Assembly (NCBI RefSeq): GCF_016901135.1
Contig: NZ_JAFEVL010000048.1
Span: 620,001-684,000, forward strand
Length of the DNA stretch: 64,000 nucleotides
Direction of reading: 5' to 3'
Source: Martinezella lusitana
Lineage (GTDB): Bacteria > Pseudomonadota > Alphaproteobacteria > Rhizobiales > Rhizobiaceae
In this document: positions 27,495 to 29,059 of the stretch, piece after piece
Layout of the letters: each line of letters begins with the position of its first letter
Position numbering within the stretch: the first letter of the stretch is position 1
Notes under the pieces: model-generated
The model's input: the letters and a program-made list of their open reading frames with translations, nothing else
What the model was told of the DNA's origin: nothing
The model's database searches: none
Program-made: the position numbers and the translations under genes

Positions 27495-27523
27495 CTTCCC
27501 TTCGCCCGCGGAAAACATTATAT
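27495..27523 (+). promoter_or_regulatory. Candidate ssrA promoter
   Basis: CTTCCC and TTATAT are 17 bases apart and resemble the rhizobial CTTGAC/CTATAT consensus in four and five of six positions. Transcription would begin near 27530, just ahead of the tmRNA acceptor piece. Read by eye only. Confidence 0.4.
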
Positions 27524-27549
27524 CACCCATGCCGGTCTTCGGGCCGGCT

Positions 27550-27875
27550 ATGGCGATAAATGAGCGGTGTAATAAACCTATTGGACCCGGGGGCGGTACC
27601 CGGCGCCTCCACCAAAAACCGGCCGGCCAAACTGGCGTCAGACCGGCTTTTGATGGGGGCGAAACAGGATCGACAAGGGTGTAAAGATCGACTTTTTGCT
27701 CGGCATTGTACCGCCGTTATCGGGCTAAAATTGTAGTTGCAAATGACAACTATGCGGAAGCTCGTCTCGCTGCTTAATCGCGGTGTGACACTTCAAATAA
27801 AGTCCTAAGGGGTCGCACTCTTGGGCGGGGTTCGAAGGCACCTGGCAACAGAAGCCTTCACCTTATCCTCCAGTG
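27550..27875 (+). ncRNA. ssrA: Two-piece (circularly permuted) tmRNA
   Basis: tmRNA rescues ribosomes stalled on broken messages and adds a degradation tag. The gene is permuted as in alphaproteobacteria. The acceptor piece comes first: a 5-bp T-stem at 27587-27591/27599-27603 with a 7-base loop, then CGCCTCC and ACCA ending at 27614. After a short spacer that is removed, the coding piece begins GGGGGCG at 27655-27661, which pairs with CGCCTCC to rebuild the acceptor stem. The tag frame starts at GCA 27739 and reads ANDNYAEARLAA before TAA 27775-27777. The outer ends are approximate. sspB, whose product recognises this tag, is directly downstream. Confidence 0.93.
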
Positions 27876-27982: not shown

Positions 27983-28489
27983 ATGGCGCAGGATCACATC
28001 CGCTACGACATTTTGGCACAGGACGCCCTGCGTGGAGTTATACGCAAGGTGTTGACCGAGGTCGGCGCCTCCGGCCGTTTGCCCGGTGATCATCATTTCT
28101 TCATCACCTTCCTGACGGGCGCTCCCGGTGTGCGCATTTCGCAGCACCTGAAGTCGAAGTATCCAGAGCAGATGACTATCGTCATCCAGCATCAGTTCTG
28201 GGATATGAAAGTTACGGAGAGCCAGTTCGAGATCGGCCTGTCTTTCTCCGACGTCCCCGAAAAGCTGGTCATCCCCTTCAACGCGGTCCGCGGCTTCTAC
28301 GATCCTTCCGTCAACTTCGAACTGGAGTTCGACGTGCCGTTGGCCGACGAAGAGGACATCACCTCCAGCGAGATCACCGCCTATCCGGTGCCGGCCGAAC
28401 ATGCCGAAGAGCCGGCAACGGCCAAGGACGGCGAGGAAAAGAAGCCAGGTTCCGTCGTCTCTCTCGACGCATTCCGCAAGAAGCAGTGA
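27983..28489 (+). CDS. sspB: SspB-type adaptor delivering ssrA-tagged proteins to ClpXP
   Basis: This is the alphaproteobacterial form of SspB, which binds the ssrA tag and tethers the substrate to ClpX. The globular tag-binding domain is at about residues 5-125 (GDHHFFITFLTGAPGVRIS, MTIVIQHQFWDM, FSDVPEKLVIPFNAVRGFYDP). An acidic flexible linker follows. The last residues, SVVSLDAFRKKQ, form the expected ClpX-docking (XB) peptide. Length is 168 residues. It lies about 100 bases after ssrA, so the tag and its adaptor are neighbours. A small DUF4169 gene follows 55 bases later. Confidence 0.95.
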   Translation: MAQDHIRYDILAQDALRGVIRKVLTEVGASGRLPGDHHFFITFLTGAPGVRISQHLKSKYPEQMTIVIQHQFWDMKVTESQFEIGLSFSDVPEKLVIPFNAVRGFYDPSVNFELEFDVPLADEEDITSSEITAYPVPAEHAEEPATAKDGEEKKPGSVVSLDAFRKKQ

Positions 28490-28544
28490 GCATGTTGGGG
28501 AAGCGTCCGCTTCCCCTTTCCACATCGGCAACGGGAAAAGATCG

Positions 28545-28739
28545 ATGAACGCCGAAATCGTCAATCTGCGCCAGTTCCGCAAGAAACAGGTTCGTTCCGA
28601 GAAAGAAAAGCAGGCAGAACAGAACCGCATCACGTTCGGCCGTCCCAAGGCTGAAAAGAACCTGACGAAGGCGCTCAACGACAAGGCCACAAAAGAACAC
28701 GAGGCCGGTCGTAGGGAGATGCCTGAAACAGACGACTGA
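28545..28739 (+). CDS. DUF4169 small basic protein
   Basis: This 64-residue highly charged protein belongs to the DUF4169 family, common next to sspB in alphaproteobacteria. It opens with MNAEIVNLRQFRKKQ, then a Lys/Glu-rich region likely to be helical, and ends acidic. The N-terminal IVNLRQFRKKQ closely resembles the C-terminal VVSLDAFRKKQ of SspB, the ClpX-docking peptide. It may therefore bind ClpX or compete with SspB. That is an inference; no function is established to my knowledge. It is probably cotranscribed with sspB. Confidence 0.85.
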   Translation: MNAEIVNLRQFRKKQVRSEKEKQAEQNRITFGRPKAEKNLTKALNDKATKEHEAGRREMPETDD

Positions 28740-28846
28740 TTGCTGCGCCAGAATTAAAAAACTTCCGAAATCAGTTGCTTACTCGTGCATTTTGAATCAC
28801 GTTAGAAATATCCCACCGTTTCCGATTTTTTTTGATCGACCCGCCG

Positions 28847-29059
28847 ATGATCCGTAAACATTCCGCGACGCTGCATGGCCATCGCACGAGCTTTTCCCTT
28901 GAGGATGCCTTCTGGACAGAACTGAAGGCAATTGCCAATGTGCACGGCACTTCGCTCGCAGCGCTGATTTCCGAAATCGACGATGGACGCGACGCAGAGA
29001 GCAATCTCTCCTCCGCGCTGCGTCTCTATGTTCTCAAGTGGCTGAAGGAACGCAATTAG
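28847..29059 (+). CDS. Ribbon-helix-helix domain protein
   Basis: This 70-residue protein is of the RHH_4 type: KHSATLHGHRTSFSLEDAFW gives the strand that would enter the DNA groove, and KAIANVHGTSLAALISEID the two helices. It is probably a small DNA-binding regulator; no partner toxin is adjacent. ATG 28847 is the first ATG; a TTG 15 bases upstream is possible. It follows the sspB-DUF4169 pair after about 105 bases and is convergent with the AsmA-like gene. Confidence 0.8.
   Translation: MIRKHSATLHGHRTSFSLEDAFWTELKAIANVHGTSLAALISEIDDGRDAESNLSSALRLYVLKWLKERN

Follow-up and report, generated by a model that had tools for sequence, protein, structure and literature searches.

Proteins of the DUF4169 family (PF13770) begin with a short peptide that resembles the end of the alphaproteobacterial adaptor SspB, whose C-terminal tail docks on the N domain of ClpX. 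Judged from the sequences, this likeness is a property of the family that extends beyond the single genome in which it was noticed. We put forward, tentatively and with slightly less than an even chance of its being right, the proposal that DUF4169 is a two-helix basic protein whose N-terminal peptide would dock on the ClpX N domain, making it a second adaptor or tether and, at high level, a competitor of SspB. The stretch of DNA analysed here, called the window, comprises 64,000 nucleotides from Martinezella lusitana (Rhizobiaceae; assembly GCF_016901135.1, contig NZ_JAFEVL010000048.1, forward strand, positions 620,001 to 684,000), a genome of 7,434,033 bases.

The locus and its two peptides in Martinezella lusitana

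On the + strand of the window the tmRNA gene is followed by sspB, a gap of 55 bases from the sspB stop to the ATG of the next gene, the DUF4169 gene and a gene for an RHH_4 protein (Table 1). The matches to Rfam RF01849 and the ARAGORN call upstream confirm that ssrA lies beside the sspB-DUF4169 pair, as the sequence-only reading of this DNA had stated. The structures matched by the SspB protein (PDB 2nys, 2qas and 2qaz) are ones that we take to come from Agrobacterium and Caulobacter. In the Rhizobiaceae loci L346, L364, L366, L379, L381, L387, L394, L396 and L398, ARAGORN reports the tmRNA tag ANDNNAKEYALAA or ANDNNAKGYALAA rather than the tag found in the window.

Table 1. Features of the ssrA-sspB-DUF4169 region, in coordinates of the window.
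Feature	Position	Strand	Evidence
ssrA, permuted alphaproteobacterial tmRNA, tag ANDNYAEARLAA	27492..27862	+	Rfam RF01849, 299.6 bits, E 7.7e-88; ARAGORN 27520-27868
sspB, alphaproteobacterial-type SspB adaptor, 168 aa	27983..28489	+	PF04386 E 4.4e-48; PDB 2nys E 1.4e-90, also 2qas, 2qaz
SspB C-terminal peptide VVSLDAFRKKQ, presumed ClpX N-domain docking peptide	28454..28486	+	Sequence; DNA-pattern match; looser pattern fits 139/139 tails
GC-rich hairpin GGGGAAGC-GTCC-GCTTCCCC followed by TTT, in the sspB/DUF4169 gap	28497..28516	+	By eye
DUF4169 gene, basic protein, 64 aa	28545..28739	+	PF13770 E 2.6e-20; AlphaFold2 two-helix model
DUF4169 N-terminal SspB-tail-like peptide IVNLRQFRKKQ	28557..28589	+	Sequence, DNA pattern, profile, column counts
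DUF4169 second conserved block NRITFGRPKAEK (family form NRxxFGRTKAEK)	28623..28658	+	Column counts, 154 proteins
RHH_4 ribbon-helix-helix neighbour gene, outside the proposed mechanism	28832..29059	+	PF13467 E 2.4e-24

The SspB open reading frame terminates in ...GSVVSLDAFRKKQ*, its last 11 residues being VVSLDAFRKKQ, and the DUF4169 frame reads MNAEIVNLRQFRKKQVRSEK..., with MNAEIVNLRQFRKKQ as its first residues. When the two peptides are aligned over 11 residues, V, L, F, R, K, K and Q are identical, V/I is conservative, and S/N, D/R and A/Q differ. The sequence-only reading had claimed seven identities and one conservative position in genes 55 bases apart, and both the reading frames and the PF13770 and PF04386 matches agree with it. 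The identity is in part local, since the F and the final KQ are not family-wide: K occupies position 14 of the protein in 8 of 154 DUF4169 sequences and Q occupies position 15 in 8 of 154. The shared FRKKQ is partly a trait of the Rhizobiaceae: of the 79 loci that fit the counting rule, 77 have the F, and the 80th has it in shifted register. These 80 loci were selected for their likeness to the window, in part with a pattern that overlaps the DUF4169 peptide itself.

The protein encoded in the window matches PF13770 with 72.9 bits (cut-off 25) over profile positions 1-55 of 55. This is its sole match to Pfam at E up to 1; there is no match to the SspB domain PF04386, so DUF4169 is ruled out as a paralogue of SspB. 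NCBIfam gave no match for the protein, and no solved structure matched the DUF4169 profile at E up to 10.

The sspB-DUF4169 gap contains a perfect stem of at least 6 in 43 of the 80 Rhizobiaceae loci, and within Rhizobium the two genes are often separated by a GC hairpin with T residues after it. Among the loci listed (40 of the 80) the bases of the stem vary with pairing kept, and very short gaps have no hairpin. A consensus terminator scan did not call the hairpin of the window. From its sequence it is possibly an attenuator or a weak terminator, and sspB and DUF4169 need not be equally expressed, given that the hairpin lies between them.

A core shared by SspB tails and DUF4169 starts

A DNA pattern for the peptide (RTNRTNNNNYTNNNNNNNTTYCGNAAR, encoding phi-phi-x-L-x-x-F-R-K with R through CGN codons only) has two matches in the 7,434,033-base genome, and these are exactly the SspB and DUF4169 peptides; the control, which is the pattern reversed, matches once on each strand. 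The uniqueness of the two matches is partly luck, because the same-genus genome G311 gives three pattern matches (both peptides and one elsewhere) and three control matches, and many genomes of the order give further matches to pattern and control.

A nine-column profile was built from 170 SspB tails (170 of 172 fitted the profile pattern), and the best-scoring segment within the first 14 residues of each DUF4169 protein was taken. The peptide from the window scores 15.7 bits, the best of 165,950 background segments reaching 8.1 bits; with other background frequencies the corresponding values are 15.1 bits and, for 133,783 segments, 9.3 bits. The class and order samples supplied 154 DUF4169 proteins, whose scores have a median of 6.2 bits, a 25th percentile of 3.8 and a 10th percentile of -0.96; SspB tails under their own profile have a median of 30 bits. 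In a background of 575 neighbouring ORFs, called mechanically and in part spurious, the DUF4169 median is reached by 3 of the 165,950 segments, by 0 of the 575 N-termini and by 0 of the 575 C-termini. The same cut, carried over as 6.17 bits from this first profile, is reached by no N-terminus and one C-terminus among 469 likewise mechanically called ORFs from the window and 380 kb of its own genome, scored with a rebuilt profile and other background frequencies. The window's part of that ORF list seems to lack sspB and DUF4169 themselves, since neither is among its top matches and a longer reverse-strand ORF overlaps both. These figures are not formal significance levels, because the likeness had been spotted before it was tested. 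Pure chance as the source of the likeness was rejected on the DNA pattern and on both N-terminus backgrounds.

Sought in other genomes, the likeness is present. An N-terminal core of the type phi-phi-N-L-x-x-x-R-K occurs in 111 of 117 class genomes, by a pattern that itself demands R or K at the last two positions; the family median lies above all N-termini of both backgrounds; and an SspB-type tail lies upstream in 80 of 80 Rhizobiaceae loci. The genomes that miss the pattern comprise two near-fits (G099 and G224) and four that are further off (G121, G225, G242 and G154).

SspB tails were read in 139 of the 253 SspB-bearing genomes of the class, and DUF4169 proteins in 117 of 118, with G226 left out. 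What the 139 tails and the 111 fitting DUF4169 starts have in common is a pair of mostly beta-branched residues followed by any residue, Leu, a spacer of three residues, Arg and Lys (phi-phi-x-L-x-x-x-R-K). Other columns set the two groups apart. Position 5 is Asp in 131 of 139 SspB tails and neither Asp nor Glu in any of the 111 DUF4169 starts; position 7 is Phe in 132 of 139 tails, whereas DUF4169 has Phe or Tyr in 38 of 111 and Ala in 44; and position 3 is Asn in 105 of 111 DUF4169 starts but in only 4 of 139 tails. The phenylalanine was accordingly rejected as the key shared residue, being near-fixed in SspB and in the DUF4169 of Rhizobiaceae and present in a minority of DUF4169 proteins class-wide. 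The sequence-only reading had described the DUF4169 peptide as a copy of that of SspB. The resemblance of the core stands throughout the family, but a class-wide copy does not, given that D5 and F7 are not general in DUF4169 and N3 is rare in SspB. Covariation of the two peptides, which that reading had proposed to check, was dropped: in a comparison by eye of genomes with both genes, SspB tails with a moved F (G012, G070, G105 and G244) pair with the usual DUF4169 starts, and no sign of covariation was seen.

In the alignment of 154 DUF4169 proteins, conservation is highest at K13 (153), G32 (151), L8 (149), R28 (149), A24 (147), N27 (145), N7 (144) and R12 (142), with K35 at 124, and position 11 is A in 64, F in 35, V in 23 and Y in 11. 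Two blocks are conserved, namely the N-terminal peptide and NRxxFGRTKAEK. Counting Met as 1 and with start codons chosen mechanically, 120 of 154 proteins have the motif starting at residue 4 and a further 18 at residue 5, which puts it at a free end of the protein. The second residue is G, A, T or S in 138 proteins of the 154, making removal of the Met likely. AlphaFold2 predicts helices at residues 2-31 and 35-54 (mean pLDDT 81.9, pTM 0.43), with a pLDDT of 72 for the first ten residues, from a shallow alignment of 30 close sequences. The motif is placed within the first of these helices, so that in the free protein it may be helical rather than a loose tail; its R12-K13 runs into a conserved basic helix (R17, A24, N27, R28 and G32). 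The median net charge is +6. Extra residues lie between the N-terminal segment and the body, as seen by eye, in five of the 154 proteins (those of G009, G143, G121, G225 and G242; loci L078, L079, L058, L057 and L059), some of which have a degenerate N-terminal segment, and the SspB of these genomes has its usual tail; these insertions suggest that the N-terminal peptide is a separable module. At the other end, two hydrophobic last residues occur in 1 of 154 proteins, and the sequences finish most often in D (36) or E (25). A C-terminal degron like that of ssrA (for example Ala-Ala) was rejected on this count.

Linkage and distribution of DUF4169

Each of the 80 Rhizobiaceae loci has a gene with an SspB-type tail, called SspB in these loci and in G467 by the tail pattern rather than by profile search, that ends 7-149 bases 5′ of DUF4169, and each has a tmRNA gene upstream in the same orientation. 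Of the 121 genomes in the order sample, 69 contain DUF4169, and all 69 also have SspB. With distances measured between profile matches, a same-strand sspB precedes DUF4169 by no more than 400 bp in 26 of these genomes, by up to 2.5 kb in 44 and by up to 16 kb in 54.

The class sample contains DUF4169 in 118 and SspB in 253 of 289 genomes, and 115 of the 118 DUF4169-bearing genomes have SspB as well. Here 44 of 117 genomes (the window's own genome counted) have sspB on the same strand no more than 16 kb upstream of DUF4169, and in the other 73 it was not found in that position. Of 44 fetched class stretches with both genes, a set that excludes the window's own genome and includes G287, where the two genes are on opposite strands, 21 have a tmRNA gene upstream of sspB in the same orientation; the tmRNA was sought over about 1.5 kb upstream of sspB, or less in three stretches. 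In G063 and G011, beyond these 21, the tmRNA call overlaps the region of the SspB match. The genomes with DUF4169 and no SspB match are G187 (96% complete), G231 (100%) and G226 (70%), and the DUF4169 proteins of G187 and G231 retain the motif. In the phylum sample DUF4169 is present in 69 of 299 genomes, all within the Alphaproteobacteria; three genomes from other classes are without it, and 210 more appear, from the order of listing, to belong to other classes.

One small Rhizobiaceae genome, G467 (1.5 Mb, 100% complete; locus L399, C4:40000-47000), has the tmRNA, the gene with the SspB-type tail and DUF4169 in order. The upstream gene ends in IVSLDSFRKK, and DUF4169, which keeps its motif and has MVETINLRQFRKQKK as its first residues, begins 12 bases past that gene's stop, at the second ATG; an in-frame ATG at the stop of the sspB-type gene would lengthen the protein by four residues. 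Retention in so small a genome argues for a real use of DUF4169.

In 46 of 117 class genomes the fetched stretch carries an RHH_4 gene in the same orientation, the stretches being of unequal length, and RHH_4 as an obligate partner was rejected on this count. The RHH_4 gene of the window recurs with sspB and DUF4169 and lies beside a putative class II fumarase gene. The recurring neighbours would also include, as read from their sequences, this putative fumarase gene and an oppositely oriented gene for an AsmA-like protein. Because RHH_4, fumarase-like and AsmA-like genes recur in the block too, linkage alone is no proof of a shared function.

A candidate ligand of ClpX and its rivals

That the N-terminus of DUF4169 docks on the ClpX N domain has, in our estimate from the sequences, close to an even chance of being correct. 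Under the proposed mechanism the extreme N-terminus would grip the N (zinc-binding) domain in the general manner of the alphaproteobacterial SspB tail and would take SspB's site there, while the conserved body NRxxFGRTKAEK would bind another partner. DUF4169 would then act as a second ClpX adaptor or tether and, when abundant, as a competitor of SspB. The model builds on the family-wide likeness, the N-terminal place, the second conserved block and the linkage to ssrA-sspB, all of which are observed, on helices that are predicted, and on a binding to ClpX that we infer. Counting against docking are the low scores of many family members, a quarter of the 154 falling below 3.8 bits and a tenth below -0.9, set against the SspB-tail median of 30. 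The same holds for the columns in which the two peptides differ, the predicted helical setting of the motif, the lack of visible covariation, the three genomes with DUF4169 and no SspB match, and the 73 of 117 class genomes in which no same-strand sspB was found up to 16 kb upstream.

The SspB XB peptide of Alphaproteobacteria (PF04386; 2nys, 2qas, 2qaz) shares with DUF4169 the core phi-phi-x-L-x-x-(F)-R-K, the position at a protein end and the locus. It differs in being C-terminal, with D5 and F7 near-fixed, and in following an ssrA-tag-binding domain, whereas the DUF4169 peptide is N-terminal and DUF4169 has no match to that domain. If the binding is real, DUF4169 would provide a new N-terminal variant among ClpX ligands, the known SspB peptides being C-terminal. 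Chowdhury and colleagues are said to have found in 2010 that recognition of the Caulobacter SspB peptide spans about ten residues and involves several side chains, and the Caulobacter and E. coli peptides are reportedly read differently. The strength of DUF4169 binding would thus depend on whether D5 and F7 are among the side chains that ClpX reads. According to the available part of PMC3983244, the E. coli SspB XB peptide (RGGRPALRVVK), also short, basic-hydrophobic and located at a protein end, binds the ClpX N domain in competition with substrates; its sequence is of another type than that of DUF4169. Alone, this tail peptide binds the N domain and blocks degradation of FtsZ and lambda O. 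The same portion of that paper has UmuD, MuA and lambda O contacting the N domain directly, as proposed here for DUF4169, to which these proteins are unrelated. Trigger factor and the Caulobacter adaptor CpdR also bind the N domain (PMC7804408, available part), which in Caulobacter has species-specific functions (PMC5422525, available part).

The explanation that DUF4169 is unrelated to ClpX is a serious one, although on balance we lean against it. DUF4169 would be a small basic helical protein, for example a binder of RNA, DNA or the ribosome, the SspB tail would be similar by convergence, and the locus would be an old neighbourhood. In this view the two beta-branched residues, N-cap-like Asn, Leu and Arg-Lys pair at its N-terminus would be the start of a conserved basic helix. 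The view agrees with the way in which K13, R17, A24, N27, R28 and G32 extend the motif along one predicted helix in a protein with a median net charge of +6, with the unshared D5 and F7 of SspB and N3 of DUF4169, and with the presence in the block of genes that have no known ClpX link (RHH_4 and, by sequence reading, the fumarase-like and AsmA-like genes). It fits poorly with the rarity of the likeness at other protein ends (0/575 and 0/469 N-termini) and with the strong linkage to sspB in the window's own order. A copying relic, in which the 3′ end of sspB or the 5′ end of DUF4169 was duplicated into its neighbour long ago and the peptides have since diverged in use, would account for genes that adjoin in many lineages and for nine-residue cores that align gap-free. 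As judged from the sequences such a relic is most improbable, since DUF4169 has no SspB profile match and the column preferences of the two peptides are distinct class-wide.

Two further explanations keep the contact with ClpX and change its purpose. DUF4169 could be a self-delivering substrate, docked on ClpX by its own N-terminal peptide and rapidly degraded as a short-lived regulator. The motif does stand at the extreme N-terminus, Met removal is likely from residue 2 in 138 of 154 proteins, and direct contact with the N domain has precedent in UmuD, MuA and lambda O (PMC3983244, available part); we nonetheless consider self-delivery unlikely, in view of the missing hydrophobic C-degron (1/154, the last residues being mostly D and E) and of a strongly conserved body that suggests a lasting function. 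Alternatively, DUF4169 could be an anti-adaptor whose sole action is to compete with SspB for the ClpX N domain, so that under some condition fewer ssrA-tagged proteins are degraded. The like peptide, the position of the gene directly 3′ of sspB in Rhizobiaceae, an intergenic hairpin that could set a lower or conditional level of DUF4169, and the inhibition by the isolated SspB tail peptide in E. coli (PMC3983244, available part) all speak for such a role. We regard it as very unlikely, because it leaves the second conserved block unexplained and because G187 and G231 hold DUF4169 and its motif without an SspB match; these two genomes weaken a strict antagonism to SspB, and a role at ClpX still fits them. 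If DUF4169 docks at all, our guess is that it does so as an adaptor or competitor ahead of a self-delivering substrate. An adaptor or tether that also competes is favoured over self-delivery by the conserved second block and the missing C-degron.

A bolder form of the adaptor proposal would make DUF4169 the third arm of a trans-translation locus, ssrA-sspB-DUF4169. It would be a ClpX tether, docked by its SspB-type N-terminal peptide in competition with SspB for the six N domains, and the basic face of its conserved helix would bring ClpXP to ribosomes, to tmRNA or to another client bound to nucleic acid. We consider this extension rather unlikely.

The literature search returned no described function for DUF4169 and no paper containing PF13770, and, among the matches listed by a broader search of titles and the starts of abstracts, with most subscription papers outside it, there was no link between DUF4169 and ClpX. 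Within the literature searched, the statement of the sequence-only reading that the family has no described function thus holds; DUF4169 is named once, among differentially expressed genes of Bradyrhizobium, in the available part of PMC13207237.

In Alphaproteobacteria ClpXP governs both the cell cycle and the responses to stress, and the occupancy of ClpX N domains by adaptors helps decide which proteins are destroyed. A negative binding result would still show how far an SspB-type motif can arise without ClpX. If the N-terminus of DUF4169 does dock on ClpX, the whole family would gain a testable role, and the trans-translation locus would gain a protein able to balance the degradation of ssrA-tagged proteins against that of other substrates.
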